Positions 6,129 to 24,303 of a stretch of 47,741 nucleotides of DNA are shown in pieces. The notes under the pieces are model-generated. The model searched no databases. It was not told the origin of the DNA and saw only the letters and a list, made by a program, of their open reading frames with translations. Made by a program: the position numbers and the translations under genes. This DNA is from Chthonomonadia bacterium (GTDB lineage: Bacteria; Armatimonadota; HRBIN16): assembly GCA_013314755.1 (NCBI GenBank), contig JABUFA010000028.1, positions 1 to 47,741 of the forward strand, read 5' to 3'. Each line of letters begins with the position of its first letter. Within the stretch, counting starts at the first letter, position 1.

Positions 6129-7349
6129 TCATAGCTCGCGCCAGATGCAATACGCCTCCACGTGATACAGATTGTTCAGCAAAGGTTCAGTGTAGGCAAT
6201 AGCTCCGTATTCCGCCCCGTTGATGTGATGCTGTTTGCCCACGTGGTTGTTCCAGTCCACCCCTTCGGTCAGGAAACCATAGTCGCCGTAGTGATGTTTG
6301 GATATGCCCAGCAGGATGTCAGTGGCACGCTGTTTGTATAGCCGTTCGCGGCTCAGCTGATATGCCTCCAGATAGGCAATGCACGCTTCGGCGTTCTCCC
6401 AGAGGTAGGCGGTATCCCAGCTATCCTCCATATACAGCAGTCCCTTTGTCGCCACGCCGTTGCGGTCTTCAGGCATCACAAACCGCTCCAGACCGGGCAG
6501 TATCTTCTGAAGGGCGTAGTCCTTCAGCGATGGTTCATTCAGCACGTCGCCAGCGCGCACGAAGGTACGGAAAGCGATGGCATAGGCGACGTTCTCCTGC
6601 AGGTCATAGGTATCGTGATTGACGCTCCCGTAGAAGCCCTCTGCTCGAATGAAGGCATCCACCCCACGCTGGAGGTGCTGGCGGTAGTCGTCGAGTCCGC
6701 GCCGGGTCAGTTCCGTCCACATCCACAGCAGGTGCGTGCCGTCACCGCTGCGCTCAAAGATGGGGTCGCTGCTGCCTTCCGCGGCGTGTGGGTAGGGGGC
6801 ACCCTGCGGGGTAATCCGCCGGGGAAACCAGCCGTTAGCCAGCACGGGCGTGATGGCAGAGAGCCAGCGGGCAGTGGTATAAGCGCAGGTGGTCAGTGAC
6901 CGGCGCAGACTTGCATCTTCCGTGCGCTCCGCGCACTCCAGCATCTGCAGTACCACCCTTGCCACACTGCCCGGGCAGAACCAGTCGCGGTTATGCTTGA
7001 AGTTCAGGTAAAACGCGCCGCTGCGCACGTCGCGATACAGCCACTGCAGGCGACCGTGCACGTCCACAAAGTGCGCCAGCGTGTGGGCAATCAGCGCGTT
7101 GCCAGCGTGGACGCAATCCTCTCGCCCGAAGGCTTTGCCGTAGCGCAGAAGCACCGACGCCCCGCCGAGGCTGTTGCTCGCCCAGCCGGGTCCCTCCAAC
7201 GGTCCGAAGTCGTGCCACATCTGCGGCTCACCGTTCGGGTTCACAAAGGTGGAGTTCGCCCGCAGGTGTCCGTCACAGGGCGTCAGGCAGTGCAGGGCAA
7301 AGCGCACCGATTCTTCCGCGCTACGTCCGATTGTCTCCTGAATATCCAT
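6129..7349 (-). CDS. Probable (alpha/alpha)-barrel protein of a glycan-use operon
   Basis: A protein of 406 residues, no signal peptide, so probably cytoplasmic. It has repeating pairs of helices with aromatic-rich loops (MWHDFGPLEGPGWASNSLGGA, RDWFCPGSVARVVLQML, DPIFERSGDGTHLLWMW, LYMEDSWDTAYLWENAEACIAYLEAY, HHINGAEYGAIAYTEPLLNNL). This is the look of six-hairpin glycosidase or epimerase folds, but I do not recognise a named family. Conserved-looking acids (D and E in the WENAEA and MEDSWD segments) could be catalytic. It is the last gene of the operon running from 15735, and its ATG lies 3 bases after the hexosaminidase stop, with GGGGTGA as ribosome site. A role in trimming or isomerising released sugars is inferred from context. 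Confidence 0.8.
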   Translation of the reverse strand: MDIQETIGRSAEESVRFALHCLTPCDGHLRANSTFVNPNGEPQMWHDFGPLEGPGWASNSLGGASVLLRYGKAFGREDCVHAGNALIAHTLAHFVDVHGRLQWLYRDVRSGAFYLNFKHNRDWFCPGSVARVVLQMLECAERTEDASLRRSLTTCAYTTARWLSAITPVLANGWFPRRITPQGAPYPHAAEGSSDPIFERSGDGTHLLWMWTELTRRGLDDYRQHLQRGVDAFIRAEGFYGSVNHDTYDLQENVAYAIAFRTFVRAGDVLNEPSLKDYALQKILPGLERFVMPEDRNGVATKGLLYMEDSWDTAYLWENAEACIAYLEAYQLSRERLYKQRATDILLGISKHHYGDYGFLTEGVDWNNHVGKQHHINGAEYGAIAYTEPLLNNLYHVEAYCIWREL

Positions 7350-7352
7350 CGC

Positions 7353-10172
7353 TCAGTTCACCCCTGTGATGGCGAACAGGATGGGCGTTGCAGTATCGTC
7401 CGTTACGCTGAACTCCACACCTGCAATCGTTTTGTGCGGATGCGGGTTATCCCAGCGCAGGGCGCGGAGTGCGACAGGCGTGCCGTCGGCGGTCTGGCTC
7501 CGCCACACGACCTTTGCGAAATAGGCAGGGCTCGGGTCGTCCCAGGCGCAAATGTTCACGCCGTATTCCAGCGGGATGGTCTCGCTGGTGTTGTCGCTGT
7601 ACAGGATGCGATAGCTGCCCACCGGTCTATTTTTCTCCACCTGCCAGCCGGTGGCGTGCAGGAAATAGAGCGCCTTTGCCCGCCTTCCAATGGGCAGGTG
7701 CACCATGCGCGGAAGAGGTCTGGTGGGAAGCATATTGCTGGCAAGCGCAACGGCAGACGGCTTTGCTGGATCTCTCGCCAGGTGGAAACGCACCCCGCCC
7801 AGCACCTGCTCGCCGCGCGGCAGGTTTCTCAGGTCGTGCTCCATGCCCATCTCCAGCCAGCCTCCGGTCTCGCTCTGCATGGCGGTGATGTTCATCGCCT
7901 CCGAAAGGTCTACGGCAAAGCCCGGTTGCGGGCGGGCAACCAGAGGACGTCTCCCGTACAGGTCCAGAAACACCTCTTCGGGGGAGTAGGGAAGCTGGTC
8001 GGGAGGTGGACTGCCGTTGCTCCAGGCGTATTCCGCCGCCAGCACAAAAGCCGAAAACTGGTGGAACGCCGGCTTGAGCACCGCTTCGCTGATGTTGAAT
8101 CCCGCCCAGGTGCTCTGAAGCAGTCCCAGGATGCCTGCCTGCTGTGCCGCCTTCGCGAAGTTATAGATGTTCATCGGTGTATACCACGTGGTGGCGATGA
8201 CCTCGAAGCCTGCATCCTGAAGCACCTTCAGGTTCTTCTGCACGAACTCCTCGGTTGGGCGGGGCTGGTAGTGCCAGTCGCAGATGATGATGTCTTTGGG
8301 GAGCATCTCGCGCCGGCGCCGTGCCTCTTCGGGGCTTTCCGCGAACGCGGCGGCATCGGCGGACTCGCTTCGGTGCAGCAGCATATCGCCCCACATCATG
8401 GTGCGGATGCTTCGCTCCCGGAAGCGGCGATAGTGATGCAGAATATCGTCCACAAAGAGCTGCGTCAGCCCGCGCTGTTTGCACTCCTCGTGATAGGGGA
8501 AGCGATTGAACAGGTGAATCTCGTCGTGCCCGATGTGGAAGGCGCGCGGCTGGAACAGCTGGATTGCCTCGTCGTAGATGGCGTCGATGAACGCATAGGT
8601 TCGCGGGTTCAACGGGCAGTAGTTATGCGGGTTGGTGGGGTCTTCGGCGATGTCCATGTTCTGCCCATTGCGGAATATCCATTCGGAGTGCCCCAGCGAC
8701 TGCACCAGCGGAGTGACCTCCATGAAATGCCTTCGCGCAAACTGGATGACCTTCTGCAGGTCCGTCTTGCTCATCGAGAAGTCCACCGCTATCTCCGGTG
8801 CGCTGTCCCAGCGGGTGTACTCGCTCTCCAGCACAAGGTGGTTCAGCTTCAGGTGCGAAAAGATGCGCTCTATCAGCTTCTGGTGGAAGGGCAGGGCATC
8901 CTTACCCAGAAACAGGTGCGCGCCTCTGAACCTCAGGGCAGGATAGTCTACTACCAGCACCCTTTTCAGCGCGGCGCCACCCGTTCGCACCTGCAGGCAC
9001 TGCTGAAGCGTTTGCGAGCCGTAGAACACGCCGCGTTCATCTGTGCCTATCACTGCGGCGGCGGTCGCGCCCACCAGAAGGGCGTATCCTTCCGGTTGTT
9101 TGGGTACTCTGAGCAGATTCCGCCACGCTCTGGGAAGATGCGAAACCTGCTCCTTCAGCCCGAAAACCACCACATTCTCCCAGCGCGAGGGCTTTCCGGT
9201 GGACAGGCGCAGGCTCAGCCCATAGCGGTCTCTTAGCATCTTCAGGAACGATTGCCCTGCGGGAACACTCGCCTGGTCCAGCGCGACCACCCGGGTGCCC
9301 GGGTTCAGAGCCAGGAACCCCTCGCGCCACTGTACCTGTTTGGGCTGGGGGATAAGCTGGATCGGGCGGATATCCGACCCGACTGCTTCTCCCAGCGGTA
9401 TCGCCCGGGTGGCTACAGCCACTCGCTCGATGGGTGTGGTGCGCTGGACGGGCGTAAAACGCATGGTTACCCGCACCGTGATGGGCAAGCCCTTCTGCAG
9501 GGGAAACTGCAGGTATCCCAGCCAGAGGGTGGGGGCTTCGCGGGCCCAGCCCTGAGAGTCCTTGCGTCCGTCAAACAGGATAATGTCGGGGTTATCGCCC
9601 TCGGCGATTATCTCCAGCGTGCCGAAGCGGGTCTGCAGGGTGAGTTTGCGAAAGGCGCGGGCAAAGGTGCCGGCTTCCCTGTCTGCCGACTTGGCGACTG
9701 CCGGGATGGTTCCGCTGAGCGTGCCGGTTGGCGTCTCCGCGATATACGTCGCCCCTGCCAGCAGTTGCGCACGCAGATAGCCCACGCAGTACTCCGCAAT
9801 CGCAGGCACTTCCTGGGTGATGGCGCACCGGAGGGTGACCTGCAGGGTGTTGTCGTCCACTATCTGCCACACTTCGGTCGCCGTGAAGGGGGAATCCAGA
9901 CGTCCATGTTCGGCAATCAGGCGACGTTCGGCGGGTTCGGTACGCACGCGCGGGGCAGTACCGCCGCTGGAGTAGTAAGCAGTTCCCCAGTCAGGGGTAG
10001 CGGATTGCAGGGAGGTCTCGCGGATGAGGCTAACGCCGGCGAATTTCACCTCCACGCCGTTCGTACCGCGATAGCTGACCTCAATCAGGGGAGATTTCAC
10101 GCTCTGCGCCTCTGCCCAGCAGAGGAGACCGGACAGCCAAACAATCCACAGTGTTCTGCAGAACCAGCGCAT
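7353..10172 (-). CDS. Glycoside hydrolase family 20 beta-N-acetylhexosaminidase
   Basis: From the ATG at 10172 the protein has 939 residues. This start gives a proper signal peptide (MRWFCRTLWIVWLSGLLCWAEA) and a GGAGAG site 8 bases upstream; a longer in-frame start lies in the upstream gene's tail. An N-terminal beta-rich region (to about 265) precedes the GH20b domain (LIPQPKQVQW onward) and the GH20 TIM barrel (FRGAHLFLGKDALP to about 740). The catalytic Asp-Glu pair is D550-E551 in FHIGHDE. A C-terminal beta domain follows. GH20 enzymes remove terminal GlcNAc or GalNAc using the substrate acetamido group as nucleophile. Export is predicted, so it acts in the periplasm or outside. It overlaps nothing and follows the DUF6259 gene by 19 bases. 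Confidence 0.93.
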   Translation of the reverse strand: MRWFCRTLWIVWLSGLLCWAEAQSVKSPLIEVSYRGTNGVEVKFAGVSLIRETSLQSATPDWGTAYYSSGGTAPRVRTEPAERRLIAEHGRLDSPFTATEVWQIVDDNTLQVTLRCAITQEVPAIAEYCVGYLRAQLLAGATYIAETPTGTLSGTIPAVAKSADREAGTFARAFRKLTLQTRFGTLEIIAEGDNPDIILFDGRKDSQGWAREAPTLWLGYLQFPLQKGLPITVRVTMRFTPVQRTTPIERVAVATRAIPLGEAVGSDIRPIQLIPQPKQVQWREGFLALNPGTRVVALDQASVPAGQSFLKMLRDRYGLSLRLSTGKPSRWENVVVFGLKEQVSHLPRAWRNLLRVPKQPEGYALLVGATAAAVIGTDERGVFYGSQTLQQCLQVRTGGAALKRVLVVDYPALRFRGAHLFLGKDALPFHQKLIERIFSHLKLNHLVLESEYTRWDSAPEIAVDFSMSKTDLQKVIQFARRHFMEVTPLVQSLGHSEWIFRNGQNMDIAEDPTNPHNYCPLNPRTYAFIDAIYDEAIQLFQPRAFHIGHDEIHLFNRFPYHEECKQRGLTQLFVDDILHHYRRFRERSIRTMMWGDMLLHRSESADAAAFAESPEEARRRREMLPKDIIICDWHYQPRPTEEFVQKNLKVLQDAGFEVIATTWYTPMNIYNFAKAAQQAGILGLLQSTWAGFNISEAVLKPAFHQFSAFVLAAEYAWSNGSPPPDQLPYSPEEVFLDLYGRRPLVARPQPGFAVDLSEAMNITAMQSETGGWLEMGMEHDLRNLPRGEQVLGGVRFHLARDPAKPSAVALASNMLPTRPLPRMVHLPIGRRAKALYFLHATGWQVEKNRPVGSYRILYSDNTSETIPLEYGVNICAWDDPSPAYFAKVVWRSQTADGTPVALRALRWDNPHPHKTIAGVEFSVTDDTATPILFAITGVN

Positions 10173-10191: not shown

Positions 10192-13100
10192 TTATGTGAT
10201 GATTCTGGCATGCCACACCCGGCGCAGGCGACCCGAAGGCGCGGGCAGCGGCGGGTGCAGGTAAAGCCACTCTAAAACGGCGGCAACCGCCGGCAGAACC
10301 ACTTCGGGATTGGGGCGAAAACCTCCCACGCGCCACAGCCATCCCCAGCCGTTCAGCCGGTAGCCGCCGATGAAGTCGTCGCGTTTGCCCGATAGAAGTG
10401 CCACATGGGGAGGCGCATCTTCGCTGCGCGGCAATCCACGGTTCACCACACTGCGCAAAGCCGATACCTGCGCCGATAACGCCTCTCCCAGCCATCTCCT
10501 GCCTTCTTCGGTGACCGTCAACGGCTCCGGGGCTTGCTCGACGGCTCCTCCACCGATGGGTAGCCCCAGTGTATCCATGCCCTTCCCGCCGATAACCTCC
10601 TGCTTCCAGCCGTCGGCTTGAGGGTAGCAGGCGATGTAGAACGAGTAGCCGGCAGTCTCCCACCAGATACCACCGTGTTGCACATACCGGCGGATGCGTT
10701 CCAGCGTCTGCCGCCATTCACCCGGTGAAGGGGCAGGAAATATCTCTCCATAGGGGTTTACAATGGCGAACCACTGGGCAACTCCCGCCTCCATCGCCCG
10801 AATCAGCGCATCCACCGAGCGTATCGGCTCCACCGATATGCCCCAGCGGCGCACCAGTGGCGATTGCTGCAGTGTCTGCAGCCAGCGCTGTGGGGTGATT
10901 TCGGTCCACACCGGAAGCAGTCCGGGCAGGTCCAGGACGCCGATTCGCAGGCGGTTACCCCCCCACTCACGCGGCGCGCGGTTAGCCAGTCGGGCAGGTG
11001 GTGCTATCGCCTGTTGACCTGTTGTCTGCACAGGCAGGGTGAAGGCGAGCACACCACGCTGGACGGTTGCCGGGGTAGTTGTGCCAGTATCCCACGCAAG
11101 GCGAATCCGACGCGACAACACACCGGGCAGGAGCACTGCCAGCTCCTCACCCGGGCGAGCATACACCCACAGGTCGCTCTGCTTTGCCGTTTCCAGGACA
11201 AAGGATACCCCTTCCGAGCCGAACTCGCGCCCGTCGACGCGGTGCAGGTTTGCCGACAGCATCCCCTCGCCAGCGGCATAGAAGCCAAAGGGTGCCAGCG
11301 TTATCCTCTGCCGTCCCACGTCCACCTGCTGGGGATGCGGGTTCAGATTCGCCACCACCTGCACCCTGCCGTAATCCGCCCGAAGGACACCATCCCCGCT
11401 TCCAACCCTTTCATGCTGAAAACCGCGCAGAGGCTCCCCAATATAGCGGGCACATACCGACTGCTGCAGGCGGCTGAGCCACCGGAGCCACTCGCGCGGA
11501 GCCTGCTGTGCCAGAACGGGTGCGCTCACCCTCGCACTGATTCCAAAGCCCAGCCCGAGCACCCACGCCATCACCTCACGATTGGTCACCGCCTGCCCGA
11601 GGTTGTGCAGGGTGAAGGCGGCTTTGTCATGCGCCAGGAACTGAGCCAGCGGGAAGATTTCCCACAGATGCGGAGGATATTGCTCCCTCAGCAGGACAAC
11701 CCATTCGGGCGCTCCCTCGGTGGGCACGAGACTCCATCCCATCCCGGACATCTGCGAGACGTAATCCGCAACGCGGTCCCAGCCTCCCTCGGTAGAGAGC
11801 GGCACCCTTTCGCTGTCTTCTGCCACCATGCTCAGCAGTCCCTCGGTGTAGGCGTATGGGGTGGGGGAGGCGGGATTGGTGTCATACAGCCATCCACGGG
11901 CGCCACACTGGTCTTGAAATAGAACATCGACAGGGAACTCCTCGGTGAACTGGCGTCGTGTGCGGCGGTTCGCCTCCTGTACCGCCGGATGCCAGAAACA
12001 GATGGTGTACCCCTCGTTGGGACCGTATCGTTCGCGGGAGAGTTGTCCGTCTAAGGTGCGCAAGAGAGGCGCCTCGCCTTCCCGCTGGAAGGTGGGACCC
12101 CTGGGGTCATCGCACCACCAGGTGGGGTTGGTATAGGGCATGACCAGATGCCCCTTTTGCCTCGCCTCACGAATGAAGGTGGCGAACTCCTGCGGCGTGC
12201 CGAACTGCGGATGGGGAGGCAGGTGGTCGGGATACTCTTTATCAAAGCCGCCCTTCAGGTAGTCTGCGAAGTGGATCAGGGTGGGAACCGGCAGATGCGA
12301 CAGGGACTGTATCTTCTCCCTCGCGTTGCCGGCATAGTAGACGAGCACCGCCCGTTTGAAACGCTCCAGTAGGGTGCGTGGCATTTTCTGTGCGAGGCGT
12401 CGGCGAAGACCGTTAGCTTCTGTATAGCGTTGAATGGCTTGCGTCGTGGTTTTGCCAGCCATCAGCCTCACGACAGGGGCGCGCCAGCTCTCGCCGGGCT
12501 TCACGAAGGTGCCGAAAGCGCGTTCGGCATAGCCGCCGTCCTGGTCGCCACCCCATGCCAGCCAGCCGGGCACGAACAGATTCTGTCTGTCCCATGCCTT
12601 CCATGCGCGCGGCTGAACCCGGAAAAGCGAGGCGGTTCCCGAACGAGTCTCCCAGTGCAGGAAATCGGCAAAAGCGGGCGGATAGGGCACGCGCATGGAG
12701 AAGTATCGCACGGGCTGAAGGGCATAGAAGAAAGGATAGCCGCCCACCTCGAACCAGTGCCCACCGTTTGCCACGAAGCGGCGGATGGCATCCAGCGTGA
12801 CGGAGATGCCCTCGGCGGGGGCGGGTAACCACTCGCCGTACGGGTTGATGATGGCGAGATACGTTCCCTCGCGCAGGGCTTTCAGCAGAGCGGGCAGGCT
12901 GGTAATTGGAGCCACCTTCACGCGCCCGCGAGTCGCCTCGGCTAACCCGGCAAGGCTTTCCTGCCACTCGTCGACGGTAACCGCTGCCCAGCCGCCGCTG
13001 CGTGGAGCGTTCGGCAGAACGATGACCCCTGCAAGCCCTTCCGCGTTCAGCTTCTCCAGCACACCGGTCACCAGCGCATGCACCAGAGCCTTTTGTGCCG

Positions 13101-13908
13101 ATTCCACCCGTCCGCCCACTCGCCACAGGTAACCCGCCTCTATCCGACGCGCACCGAAATAGTCCCCATTTGGCGAAGCAACCAGCACCACGTCCAGCTG
13201 TTCTCTGCGCGAGGGTCGGTTGACGATAGCGCGTGCTCCCGATAGGCTCCGTATCACCTCATCGGGAAGCCAGCGCCGTGCCTCTTCCGTCGGAAACACC
13301 TCCACTGGCGGGTCATTGTCGGCACGCTGTATCAGCGCGCTGCCGAATAGACGCGCATAACCCTCCGGTCCCACCAGCGCAGGGCGCCAGGCGGAAGGGT
13401 GCTCTTCCGGTTGTTGTTGAAAGAATCCTCCTCGCAACGCCATGCCCACCGACTGATTGCCATCTGCAGGACATATCAGGCGGGTAATCTGCGTCGGGTC
13501 GAAGCGCAGGCGGGCAGGTAGGGCGAAATCCAGTACTGTGTCCAGATACGGAGTGACCTCGCCAATCCAGTCTATATGGTCACTGTATGCAACCGCCTGC
13601 ACCAGCACAAGAGCGTGTGGATGCTCGTAGCGCAGATGAAGCACGTTGTCCTGCGCCTGTATCTGTGCGGATAACCCTCTGGCGGAGAGCGTGTCGCCGT
13701 TCCGAAAGCGAAGGAGCCACAGCCCCTGTTCGCCGCTTTGCAGGATGGGTGTGCCCTGTGGGCGGGCGGAAAAGGAAAGGATGGAGCCGTCTGCCGCGCT
13801 CAGTACCAGGGAATAGGAGGCTCCTGTGACGGAACAGTATCCGCTCGCTGTCTGCCAGCGCGGAAGGGGTGCTGTTCCTGAGCCTTGTTGTTGGGCGTTG
13901 CGTGCCAT
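10192..13908 (-). CDS. DUF6259-type glycosidase-like protein with duplicated flanking modules (1238 aa)
   Basis: ATG 13908 follows GGAGAGAGCG; a GTG 8 codons upstream is less likely. No signal peptide is seen. The centre (about residues 510-840) is a TIM-barrel-like region with LIHFADYLKGGF, HLVMPYTNPTWWCD, a possible catalytic Asp in VDVLFQDQCGARG and a possible Glu in PLSTEGGWDR, as in DUF6259 glycosidase-like proteins. On each side lies a copy of the same two modules. Module A reads INPYGEWLPAP...GGHWFEVGGYPFFYA (about 290-400) and again INPYGEIFPAP...GGIWWETAGYSFYIA (about 990-1095). Module B reads EEARRWL...GYLWRVGG (about 205-270) and again EEGRRWL...GWLWRVGG (about 1130-1195). The order is B-A before the barrel and A-B after it. 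Its operon neighbours suggest a glycan substrate. Confidence 0.8.
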   Translation of the reverse strand: MARNAQQQGSGTAPLPRWQTASGYCSVTGASYSLVLSAADGSILSFSARPQGTPILQSGEQGLWLLRFRNGDTLSARGLSAQIQAQDNVLHLRYEHPHALVLVQAVAYSDHIDWIGEVTPYLDTVLDFALPARLRFDPTQITRLICPADGNQSVGMALRGGFFQQQPEEHPSAWRPALVGPEGYARLFGSALIQRADNDPPVEVFPTEEARRWLPDEVIRSLSGARAIVNRPSRREQLDVVLVASPNGDYFGARRIEAGYLWRVGGRVESAQKALVHALVTGVLEKLNAEGLAGVIVLPNAPRSGGWAAVTVDEWQESLAGLAEATRGRVKVAPITSLPALLKALREGTYLAIINPYGEWLPAPAEGISVTLDAIRRFVANGGHWFEVGGYPFFYALQPVRYFSMRVPYPPAFADFLHWETRSGTASLFRVQPRAWKAWDRQNLFVPGWLAWGGDQDGGYAERAFGTFVKPGESWRAPVVRLMAGKTTTQAIQRYTEANGLRRRLAQKMPRTLLERFKRAVLVYYAGNAREKIQSLSHLPVPTLIHFADYLKGGFDKEYPDHLPPHPQFGTPQEFATFIREARQKGHLVMPYTNPTWWCDDPRGPTFQREGEAPLLRTLDGQLSRERYGPNEGYTICFWHPAVQEANRRTRRQFTEEFPVDVLFQDQCGARGWLYDTNPASPTPYAYTEGLLSMVAEDSERVPLSTEGGWDRVADYVSQMSGMGWSLVPTEGAPEWVVLLREQYPPHLWEIFPLAQFLAHDKAAFTLHNLGQAVTNREVMAWVLGLGFGISARVSAPVLAQQAPREWLRWLSRLQQSVCARYIGEPLRGFQHERVGSGDGVLRADYGRVQVVANLNPHPQQVDVGRQRITLAPFGFYAAGEGMLSANLHRVDGREFGSEGVSFVLETAKQSDLWVYARPGEELAVLLPGVLSRRIRLAWDTGTTTPATVQRGVLAFTLPVQTTGQQAIAPPARLANRAPREWGGNRLRIGVLDLPGLLPVWTEITPQRWLQTLQQSPLVRRWGISVEPIRSVDALIRAMEAGVAQWFAIVNPYGEIFPAPSPGEWRQTLERIRRYVQHGGIWWETAGYSFYIACYPQADGWKQEVIGGKGMDTLGLPIGGGAVEQAPEPLTVTEEGRRWLGEALSAQVSALRSVVNRGLPRSEDAPPHVALLSGKRDDFIGGYRLNGWGWLWRVGGFRPNPEVVLPAVAAVLEWLYLHPPLPAPSGRLRRVWHARIIT

Positions 13909-13926: not shown

Positions 13927-13950
13927 GGGCACCGGTGCTCACCGGTGCCC
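13927..13950 (-). promoter_or_regulatory. Intercistronic GC-rich hairpin inside the glycan operon
   Basis: GGGCACCGGTG, CT, CACCGGTGCCC is a perfect inverted repeat with 11-bp arms. It lies between the isomerase stop (13958) and the DUF6259 start (13908). No T-tract follows on the minus strand, so it is not a classic terminator. A role in RNA stability, processing or partial termination within the operon is likely. It is the second such element in the window (compare 2052-2079). Confidence 0.65.
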
Positions 13951-21542: not shown

Positions 21543-22285
21543 GGCGATAGACCGACGGCACGCTTCAGTGCGGCGACCTCTTCGGTGGTCAGGTGTCTCC
21601 ATGCGCCCGGCGGCAGGTCGCGCAGAGTCAGCGGACCAAACCGCTCCCGGTGCAGGCGCACGACCGGGTGACCTGCCGCCTGGCACATTCGCTTGACCTG
21701 TCGCTTGCGCCCTTCGTGAATCGTGATGCGCAGGAGGGTGGTCTGTCGCTCAGGTTGATACCGCACCACTTCTACCTGCGCGGGGGCGGTCAGCCCGTCC
21801 TCCAGCATTATCCCCTCGCGGAGCGCACGCAGTGCCTGCTCCCTCACCTCGCCGCGCACTTCCGCCAGATAGGTCTTTGGCACGCCGTAACGGGGGTGGG
21901 TCAACCGATAGGCAAGCTCGCCGTCGTCCGTCAACAGAAGCGCACCGGTGGTGTCAGCGTCCAGCCGTCCCACGGGAAACACGGGCGCGGTAACACCCTG
22001 TATCAGGTGCATCACCGTGCGCTTCGCGTGAGGGTCGTGACGGGTGGTCATCACACCTGCCAGCTTGTGCAGCAGGATGTAGGTATGTGTTTCTGGCAGG
22101 CGCACGCGCCGACCGTCTACCTCGATAACATCCTGCCGGGGGTCTGCCTGCGTGCCCAGCTGGGTAACTACCTGTCCGTTCACACGCACGCGCCCCTGCC
22201 GAATCAGCTCCTCGCACGCCCGGCGCGAGCCGTATCCCGCCTGTGCCAGAATCTTTTGCAGCCTCTGTCGCCCGTACTCGCTCAT
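21539..22285 (-). CDS. rluB: rRNA pseudouridine synthase, RsuA/RluB family
   Basis: Isomerises a specific uridine of rRNA to pseudouridine. The 248-residue protein has an N-terminal S4 RNA-binding domain (RLQKILAQAGYGSRRACEELIRQGRVRVNG, residues 8-37), then the catalytic domain with LHKLAGVMTT, the active-site aspartate D109 in VGRLDADTTGALLLTDDG, KTYLAEV and IHEGRKRQVKRMCQAAGHPVVRLHR. The pattern fits RluB (23S, helix 80 type) better than RsuA, but the exact target cannot be told here, so the symbol is by best family fit. No ribosome site is visible before the ATG; a palindrome with a TATACT box lies directly upstream. Confidence 0.88.
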   Translation of the reverse strand: MSEYGRQRLQKILAQAGYGSRRACEELIRQGRVRVNGQVVTQLGTQADPRQDVIEVDGRRVRLPETHTYILLHKLAGVMTTRHDPHAKRTVMHLIQGVTAPVFPVGRLDADTTGALLLTDDGELAYRLTHPRYGVPKTYLAEVRGEVREQALRALREGIMLEDGLTAPAQVEVVRYQPERQTTLLRITIHEGRKRQVKRMCQAAGHPVVRLHRERFGPLTLRDLPPGAWRHLTTEEVAALKRAVGLSP

Positions 22286-22291
22286 CGTACC

Positions 22292-22308
22292 GTATACTTA
22301 AAGTATAC
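22292..22308. promoter_or_regulatory. Perfect 17-bp palindrome between rluB and the DUF6785 gene
   Basis: GTATACTTAAAGTATAC is symmetric about its central A. It contains TATACT on both strands, so it may hold overlapping -10 boxes for the divergent genes, and it is ideally placed for a dimeric regulator. It ends 6 bases before the rluB start codon. No good -35 box is seen on either side. Which protein binds it is unknown. Confidence 0.55.
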
Positions 22309-22335
22309 AGGAAGTGTACGGGAGGTAGGGCAGCG

Positions 22336-24303
22336 TTGTATCGTTCAGTAGCTGTGGAACAGATAAGGCGGTACGAAGACAGACGGCAGGCGGTGGTGGC
22401 AGTCAGCTGGAGAGCGGCACGGGCGATTCTCTGGGGATTGATTCTGGTGGTGGCGCTGTGTGCGCTGACCATCCACTCGAACCTGATATACCGGCGTTAC
22501 ATCACCGCTGCCTCGCTGCCGAGCGGTGCGGTGTTCTTCTTTTTCCTGACGGTGGTGCTGAACGGGATAGTGCGGCGGATCAACGCGCGGTGGGCGATGC
22601 AGAAGTGGGAACTGGGCATTGTGTTCTCCATGCTGTTTATCTCCGCTGCGTTACCACAGGCTTCGCTGGGTGAGACGCTGGTGACGCTGGCGGTTGCGCC
22701 CCAATATTATCCGCGGCGGGGTGGGATCCCCTATGCCGAACAACTGGCGGATGCTATCCCCTCGTGGCTGCTGGTGCAGGAGAGAGAGGCGGTGCGCACG
22801 TTTTATGAGGGGCTACCTCCCGGTCACTCCATCCCGTGGGGTGCCTGGGTGGTGCCGATGGTCGGGTGGACGTTGTTTGCGCTCGCCCTGATTGCGGCGC
22901 TCGGGTGCCTGGCACGCATCCTGTCGCACCGATGGATTGAGGAAGAGCGGGTGACCTTCCCGCTGATGGAACTGCCTCTGGAGATGATGGGTGCGGGAAG
23001 CGAAGGCAACCGTTTCTGGCGCAATCCGCTGCTGTGGCTGGGCTTTGCGATACCCGGCACTATGATTGGCATCGGGCAGATGCACGCCTATTTCCCCACC
23101 GTTCCCGAAATCGGGCAGATTATCACCTGGCGAATCGGCGAGGGCTGGCAGACCGCTCCGCTTAACGCCCTGCGCGATTTCGTGTTTCCGGTGTGGATGC
23201 TGGTGATTGGCGTCTCGTATCTGATTAACGGCGAGGTGGCTGCCTCGATCTGGGTGTTTCATCTGCTTTACCGGGCACAGCTGCTGATTTTTGCACTGAT
23301 GGGCTACAACGCTGCCGCTCCATCGGGCACGGTGACCTTCAATCCGATGGACTGGATCCACCACACCGAGTTTGGGGCGTGCGTGGTGCTTTCGATAGCG
23401 ATGTTGATGCCTGTATGGGCAGATGTGGTAAAGGCATGGCGGCGGGAACCGGATGCGAAGGTATCGCGTGGGGCGGTGCTGGGCTTCCTCGCGGCGAACG
23501 GCGCGATGTTGCTGTGGGCGATGCTCGCCGGCGGGCATGTGGTGATGATGCTCCTGTTCCTCGCGGTGCTATATGCCATTGTGCTGGCGCTGGGCAGGAT
23601 GGTGGCTTCGGGCGGGGTCTATCTGGTGGACAACGGCTATGTGCCCGAGCGGTTGATACAGGGGCTGTCGGGGAGCCTATGGCCCAGCAACGGCAGTTTA
23701 TGGATGCTCAATGCACACAATGCCCTCGTGGGGCGGGCGGACATGAGCTTCCTGTACTTCGCCCTGAACGATGAGAAGTTTCGCTACGAGGCGAGGCTGC
23801 CCCAGCGTGTGCACCTGTTGGGTGTGGTAGTCTCGGTGCTGGCAGCATTGCTGGGAGCGTATTTCTTCATCCTGTGGTGGTCGTATCAGTACGGTGCGGT
23901 CAACTTCGCCGCGTGGCCCCTCTCGTGGAACGTGCCCCAGCACCTTCAGCGTTTGATGGCTGGCATGGCGTCGCGACAACCGCCATCCGCAGAGGTGTGG
24001 AGCGCTACCCTTCTGGGCGCGGGTATCGGTCTGTTTCTACTGAACATGAATCGGCGGTTCACCTGGTGGAGGCTGTCGCCCATTGGTTTTGTGATTGCCA
24101 GCAGTGAAAACGTGAGCGGGCAGATTTGGGGCGGCGCGTTCATTGGGTGGTTGGTCTCCTCACTGGTGAAGCGTTACGGTGGCATGCCCCTGTACCGAAA
24201 GCTGCGCCCCTTTTTCCTGGGGCTGATTCTGGGCGATGTGGTGGTGTACTGCACAATAGTGCTGCTGGAGTCGCTAATAGGCGTGCGCGGGGCGGGGTTT
24301 TAG
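22336..24303 (+). CDS. Large multi-pass membrane protein, DUF6785-like
   Basis: From TTG at 22336 (GGGAGG about 10 bases upstream) the protein has 655 residues; the frame is open back into rluB, but that part is not plausible. A GTG a few codons later is an alternative. About a dozen hydrophobic helices are visible (ARAILWGLILVVALCALTIH, VFFFFLTVVLNGIV, ELGIVFSMLFISAALP, GWTLFALALIAALGCLARIL, MLLWAMLAGGHVVMMLLFLAVLYAIVLAL, VLAALLGAYFFILWWSY, others). EEERVTFPLMELPLEMM after the early helices, and PRRGGIPYAEQLADAIPSWL in a loop, match what I know of the DUF6784/DUF6785 oligopeptide-transporter-like family of Planctomycetes and Armatimonadota. Transport is likely; the substrate is unknown. Confidence 0.8.
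   Translation: MYRSVAVEQIRRYEDRRQAVVAVSWRAARAILWGLILVVALCALTIHSNLIYRRYITAASLPSGAVFFFFLTVVLNGIVRRINARWAMQKWELGIVFSMLFISAALPQASLGETLVTLAVAPQYYPRRGGIPYAEQLADAIPSWLLVQEREAVRTFYEGLPPGHSIPWGAWVVPMVGWTLFALALIAALGCLARILSHRWIEEERVTFPLMELPLEMMGAGSEGNRFWRNPLLWLGFAIPGTMIGIGQMHAYFPTVPEIGQIITWRIGEGWQTAPLNALRDFVFPVWMLVIGVSYLINGEVAASIWVFHLLYRAQLLIFALMGYNAAAPSGTVTFNPMDWIHHTEFGACVVLSIAMLMPVWADVVKAWRREPDAKVSRGAVLGFLAANGAMLLWAMLAGGHVVMMLLFLAVLYAIVLALGRMVASGGVYLVDNGYVPERLIQGLSGSLWPSNGSLWMLNAHNALVGRADMSFLYFALNDEKFRYEARLPQRVHLLGVVVSVLAALLGAYFFILWWSYQYGAVNFAAWPLSWNVPQHLQRLMAGMASRQPPSAEVWSATLLGAGIGLFLLNMNRRFTWWRLSPIGFVIASSENVSGQIWGGAFIGWLVSSLVKRYGGMPLYRKLRPFFLGLILGDVVVYCTIVLLESLIGVRGAGF

Follow-up and report, generated by a model that had tools for sequence, protein, structure and literature searches.

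The 47,741-nucleotide stretch of DNA analysed here (the window) is contig JABUFA010000028.1 from the assembly of a Chthonomonadia bacterium (GCA_013314755.1; Armatimonadota, HRBIN16). Its reverse strand encodes a 1238-residue protein (10195..13908, with the ATG at 13908 behind GGAGAG and the stop codon at 10192-10194) in which a barrel of the DUF6259 family is flanked by two copies of the same accessory region. This region is made up of two segments, A and B, which stand in the order B-A ahead of the barrel and A-B behind it, and the N-terminal B-A copy is a circular permutant of the C-terminal A-B domain.

The duplication is evident from the protein sequence. When the N-terminal half of the protein is compared with the C-terminal half via BLASTP, the A segments align with 41% identity over 96 residues (E = 6e-18) and the B segments with 31% identity over 123 columns (E = 3e-9, with a concordant phmmer result). 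In the permuted copy, the B half spans residues 176-288 (13045..13383, on the reverse strand, as are all features of this protein) and includes the motifs EEARRWL (residues 208-214) and GYLWRVGG (residues 259-266); the A half, with INPYGE (residues 354-359) and GGHWFEVGGYPFFYA (residues 382-396), follows at residues 290-400 (12709..13041). Behind the barrel, the A half spans residues 986-1098 (10615..10953) and includes GGIWWETAGYSFYIA (residues 1079-1093), and the B half spans residues 1106-1222 (10243..10593), with EEGRRWL (residues 1134-1140) and GWLWRVGG (residues 1189-1196). All four boundaries come from repeat and profile alignment, with the addition of the structural models for every half except the permuted B, and of Foldseek for the canonical copy. 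In Smith-Waterman shuffling controls, z-scores of 31 (A-A) and 20 (B-B) were obtained, whereas the crossed A-B pairs gave 0.0 and 0.6, which is chance level; a chance repeat or a low-complexity artefact is ruled out by these shuffles and crossed controls. The preliminary description of this DNA had noted both the duplication of the two modules around the barrel and the reversal of their order, and on both counts, including the placement of the motifs in frame, it was correct.

The relationship between the two copies was examined using profiles built from 17 C-terminal and 23 N-terminal copies and compared via hhalign. Undoubled profiles match in two swapped pieces (A, E = 3.9e-32; B, E = 4.8e-21), and a doubled A-B profile aligns with the B-A profile in a single run of 226 columns (E = 1.7e-48). 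Circular permutation is classically recognised by just such a single run through a doubled profile, and the permuted duplication proposed in the preliminary description is upheld. In the permuted copy, a linker of a few residues joins the old termini (the end of B and the start of A), and the new termini fall at the place where, in the C-terminal copy, a beta-hairpin (model strands 122-127 and 130-135) connects A with B. The same B-A ... A-B layout is also found in relatives at roughly 40-70% identity.

Structure prediction indicates what kind of domain has been permuted. The AlphaFold2 (AF2) model of the C-terminal copy (residues 971-1238), for which N-terminal copies were split into their A and B segments and entered as separate rows of the alignment, is one compact domain with a mean predicted local distance difference test score (pLDDT) of 88.8 and a predicted template modelling score (pTM) of 0.87. 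In a Foldseek search of the PDB, this model matches class I glutamine amidotransferase (GAT)-like folds along its whole length and in canonical order (236-290 columns), including gamma-glutamyl peptidase, the ThuA-like proteins 1t0b and 2gk3, Pdx2 and GatD (E = 1e-4 to 4e-3). Among the best fold matches are also the glycoside hydrolase (GH) family 112 phosphorylase 2zuw and the GH5 enzyme Op5Man5 (7bob), both of which carry such a domain. On the strength of this model, A and B make up one domain between them and are not independent modules, and A-B has a class I GAT-like (ThuA/GAT-like) fold in canonical order, in keeping with the single Rossmann-like domain for which the preliminary description had called for a structure prediction. 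No Pfam family is significant for the A-B domain, including the GH42-type trimerisation domain (PF08532), an NCBIfam search gave no match, and a PDB search with the single sequence returned nothing significant.

If A and B were instead separate small domains that shuffle independently, the protein would contain two module orders but no circular permutation. A lone B half does exist, in a 177-residue open reading frame (ORF; L104:2689-3219, forward strand) with 51% identity to the B half of L079, a DUF6259 enzyme discussed below. However, the compact A-B model matches whole GAT-like domains, and in 38 N-terminal and 24 C-terminal copies the two halves lie side by side, making independent shuffling very unlikely.

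The permuted copy is located within a larger fold. The model of the N-terminal part of the protein (residues 19-520) comprises a beta-sandwich, the helices and strands of B and then A, and further sandwich strands, and its secondary-structure elements pair one to one with those of the C-terminal model after rotation, in a comparison of element lists and not of coordinates. The first part of this galactose-mutarotase-like sandwich, S1, covers residues 20-175 (13384..13851; AF2 strands and Foldseek), and the second, S2, covers residues 404-505 (12394..12699; model and core alignment). Foldseek matches for the sandwich are mutarotase-like sandwiches, with those of GH129 (5wzn) and of the GH101 enzyme EngBF among them. 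Weak profile matches between the N-terminal B half and adenovirus fibre knobs (E = 0.02-0.5) were also encountered, and were judged to be due to chance, since they involve a beta-rich segment and a single related target set.

DUF6259 proteins without B-A make it possible to define the insertion site. When B-A is excised, the core profile aligns without a break to six such proteins over 467 columns (E = 7.6e-17), whereas the alignment splits in two pieces when B-A is retained. The insertion site lies directly ahead of the segment YPPAFADFLHWETRSG, the counterpart of which in L069 is YPSLVAAMQFVAFYNRG; in L079 and L103, which are more closely related to the protein, S1 and S2 are adjacent and the N-terminal site is empty. 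Because the strands flanking B-A form one sandwich, which is continuous in the BA-less DUF6259 proteins, these alignments identify B-A as an insertion in the N-terminal beta-sandwich of the enzyme.

A similar situation exists at the other end of the protein. Behind the barrel, a segment with a putative beta-sandwich fold (BD, residues 831-965, 11014..11418) extends as far as the insertion point of A-B, and A-B is followed by a terminal stretch, RLRRVWHARIIT (residues 1227-1238, 10195..10230). Seven members lacking A-B (L002, L004, L007, L012, L013, L028 and L078) preserve this terminal stretch, which is LWH-like in most of them and is the one that comes after A-B in other members. Because they retain it, A-B is an insertion here as well, nested just ahead of RLRRVWHARIIT, which is probably the final strand of a C-terminal sandwich. 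In the enzyme core, a (beta/alpha)8 barrel would stand between two beta-sandwiches, one N-terminal and one C-terminal.

These nested positions are difficult to reconcile with the origin suggested in the preliminary description, namely the insertion of the barrel into a tandem array of duplicated A-B units, which would have left B-A and A-B on opposite sides. Such an array would account for the B-A ... A-B order around the barrel, but the sandwich strands on both sides of B-A are continuous in BA-less DUF6259 proteins and in L079 and L103, some proteins have the sandwich-barrel-sandwich core but neither A nor B, and A-B itself lies inside a sandwich, ahead of its last strand. This part of the preliminary description is consequently not retained, and the tandem-array origin is considered extremely improbable.

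Any match at all was detected in 47 of the 291 genomes of the phylum, and members beyond it are found in Poribacteria, Kiritimatiellae, Verrucomicrobia and Planctomycetales. The nearest named relatives of the window's genome, which is 3.95 Mb in size, are HRbin16 and an Armatimonadetes metagenome-assembled genome. The B-A order is present in all 38 members in which both halves were read, and the C-terminal A-B copy in 24 of 42, with some of the absences attributable to contig ends (such as L003 and L006) or to a frame break (L027). There are relatives with no copy, with only the canonical copy, with only the permuted copy and with both. The canonical copy alone is found in L079 (L079:748-3546, forward strand; G200:C51, protein P0002), a DUF6259 enzyme with an empty N-terminal site and a canonical C-terminal A-B. 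On a barrel tree with L079 and L103 as the outgroup, a long branch (100/100) divides these two from the remaining 40 rows.

Canonical A-B is also found outside DUF6259 enzymes: in L105 (L105:973-2346, reverse strand), on a contig that is cut upstream, it is fused to a BD-FAE/Abhydrolase_3 esterase. The search for an isolated A-B unit that the preliminary description proposed yielded this fusion, while in the 200 nearest genomes there was no strong case of an isolated unit, and such A matches as appeared were weak ones to GH42-type proteins. Large GH42-like proteins have weak A-like matches in their N-terminal region, and two of them (L060 and L066) carry GH42M further on. An A-B-A-B intermediate was not seen, and no separate A-B gene was present beside members without a C-terminal copy within the flanks examined.

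In a tree of A+B sequences rearranged into one order, the family's C-terminal copies group together as a clade (97/96), and a single clade of N-terminal copies is not rejected by the approximately unbiased test (p-AU 0.745). The simplest reading of these sequence data is that canonical A-B is older, that the family acquired B-A a single time, in its stem lineage, and that A-B was lost several times. B-A may have arisen by tandem duplication and trimming, or by insertion of a re-cut copy. The universal presence of B-A in the family and the patchiness of A-B could also suggest the reverse, with B-A the older copy in the family and A-B derived from it by a second, reversing permutation, and the N-terminal copies are not so clearly one clade as to prevent the C-terminal clade from nesting among them. 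However, canonical A-B occurs in L079, which lies outside the family, and in the esterase fusion, its order is that of the GAT fold, two permutations would be required, and the tree does not reject the single N-terminal clade. A reversing permutation is therefore regarded as unlikely, and the addition of B-A to a lineage with an older canonical domain is preferred.

The barrel itself (residues 512-830, 11419..12375) was assigned via a match to PF19773 (DUF6259) at residues 530-670 (E = 4.2e-10, 39.7 bits against a cut-off of 28.7), and PF19773 is matched by all 22 family members scanned (E ≤ 0.1). Two residues 41 positions apart, D666 in the sequence FQDQ (11911..11913) and E707 in the sequence STE (11788..11790), are invariant in an alignment of 27 barrels that includes distant DUF6259 proteins; D666 is proposed as the catalytic nucleophile and E707 as the acid/base. 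The profile of these 27 barrels matches the GH129 alpha-N-acetylgalactosaminidase 5wzn (E = 9.4e-6, about 60 residues), a match that a search with the single sequence did not give. Exo-acting, retaining cleavage of alpha-glycosides is the probable activity, in an enzyme related to GH129 and GH101. The catalytic domains of these two families are alike, and GH129 enzymes remove alpha-linked N-acetylgalactosamine (PMC8106489). Since a GH129-like enzyme with a different activity and a single conserved catalytic Asp exists (PMC5698469), the substrate cannot be read from the likeness to GH129. No characterised member of the barrel family was found in this analysis. The N-termini of most relatives inspected resemble signal peptides when read by eye. 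Those from the window's genus (L001, L010, L002, L012 and L013) do not, which suggests that the enzyme is cytoplasmic in this genus.

Both accessory copies preserve N-P-Y-G-E, G-G, W, E, G, R and R. In the N-terminal copy, the polar set comprises N355/P/Y/G/E359, W385, E387, R231 and R263, and the equivalent positions are conserved in the C-terminal copy. No cysteine column reaches 60% in either copy, and the only histidine column to do so, at 71%, is found in the C-terminal copies, with none in the N-terminal ones. Because no cysteine or histidine is common to both copies, the amidotransferase triad is excluded, and both GAT-like copies are, as judged from these alignments, catalytically dead. 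The dead GAT-like domain of GH42-type enzymes mediates trimer formation by contacting the barrel of the neighbouring subunit, and in GH164 this trimer contact helps to place active-site residues (PMC8233224, PMC7105311). By analogy, the two dead domains may flank the barrel as accessory parts of a comparable kind, providing oligomer contacts or an active-site lid.

It is also possible that the shared N-P-Y-G-E/W-x-E/R/R pocket binds a sugar, in which case the accessory domains would have a carbohydrate-binding or sensing function and not one in oligomerisation or as a lid; this alternative concerns function only. The alternative comes close in weight, since the polar residues common to both copies resemble a pocket that has been kept: they are conserved in both, beyond what a mere interface would need, and their predicted positions at strand ends would fit the pocket edge of the GAT fold. 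Nevertheless, the ligand is putative and the GAT-like domains of GH42-type enzymes serve as trimer contacts (PMC8233224, PMC7105311), so that sugar binding, while a real possibility, appears the less probable role.

Several observations weigh against parts of the account given above. The TM-scores of the A-B Foldseek matches are modest (about 0.38-0.48), the A-B profile has no significant match to a GAT family in Pfam, NCBIfam or the PDB, and the N-terminal model, derived from 9 sequences, has a pLDDT of 79.5 and a pTM of 0.61. The profile match to GH129 spans only about 60 residues and falls short of D666 and E707, the two residues to be compared with the catalytic pair of NagBb (Asp435 and a second residue), and the enzyme activity and structure of the protein are predicted only. 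L079 and L103 are both on long branches, and in principle B-A could have been lost from them and not have been absent from the start, although it is likewise missing from more distant DUF6259 proteins. Finally, the deep branches of the N-terminal copies and the place of L079 are not settled by the A+B tree. Taken with these points, the account as a whole, in which a probable DUF6259 exo-alpha-glycosidase has two dead GAT-like accessory domains nested in its sandwiches, one of them permuted, is still thought highly likely. The further proposal, that in this uncharacterised glycosidase family sandwich loops took up a dead GAT-like domain on two occasions, one of them as a circular permutant, with the same ligand pocket kept and the steps recorded in living relatives, is put forward tentatively, with somewhat less than even confidence.

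The gene is part of a run of genes on one strand: AP_endonuc_2 and MocA-type genes lie upstream of it and a GH20 gene overlaps its 3' end. A GH20 gene also adjoins the family gene in HRbin16. Because of this run, and of the GH20 neighbour in both genomes, the enzyme may have a role in the breakdown of an oligosaccharide that possibly contains N-acetylhexosamine. The start of the GH20 ORF overlaps the end of the gene by about 20 bases (10192-10211), which suggests coupled translation, and an inner ATG about 40 bases further on would open a signal-peptide-like stretch. Between the AP_endonuc_2 gene and the gene for the 1238-residue protein, a perfect 11-bp inverted repeat, GGGCACCGGTG-AG-CACCGGTGCCC (13927-13950), is a candidate terminator or regulatory element. 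On the forward strand, opposite the GH20 gene, a 747-residue open frame (6993-9236) is probably an artefact of high GC content. DUF6785/DUF6784 proteins are encoded near a family member in three genomes (22243-24303 of the window, forward strand; L002:1-1389; L004:3625-5556).

Circular permutation by duplication and dead GAT-like domains in glycosidases are both already known. A literature search with partial coverage returned nothing relevant on DUF6259 or on a permuted GAT domain in a glycosidase, and the literature covered contained no case of a single chain that has one domain in both orders and relatives with empty sites; the statement in the preliminary description that no protein with such a layout has been described was accordingly not contradicted. 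The results define a family of GAT-like domains with no match in Pfam or NCBIfam, and provide a domain map for a barrel family that distantly resembles mucin-type alpha-N-acetylgalactosaminidases.

The closest systems for comparison are the BA-less DUF6259 proteins (L067-L072 and L103), which share the N-terminal sandwich, the barrel, the C-terminal part and the equivalents of D666 and E707 but have a GAT-like domain at neither site. GH129 NagBb (5wzn) shares a barrel profile match and an N-terminal sandwich fold match, and GH101 EngBF the latter, although identity is very low, the profile match is limited to about 60 residues and the sequence evidence stops short of placing the protein in GH129; neither enzyme is known to have GAT-like domains. 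A glycosidase barrel combined with a dead class I GAT-like accessory domain is shared with GH42, GH164 Bs164, GH5 Op5Man5 and the GH112 phosphorylase GLNBP, but in GH42-type enzymes the domain is single, canonical and behind the barrel, whereas here it is doubled, nested in sandwich loops and once permuted. In its fold and in the order of its strands, the C-terminal copy corresponds to ThuA-like and class I GAT structures (1t0b, 2gk3, 2nv0 and 5n9m), but here there is no catalytic cysteine, no shared histidine and no significant sequence match. As a rule, natural circular permutations come to light when different proteins are compared, and the path from one form to the other is guessed; here the paralogues share one chain, and the range of relatives with neither copy, the canonical copy, the permuted copy or both makes models of permutation testable by phylogeny. 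The saposin/swaposin pair, a natural permutant explained by duplication (PMC3320104), has its permuted and canonical forms in separate proteins, whereas in this family both are found within one chain, alongside relatives in which the sites are empty.

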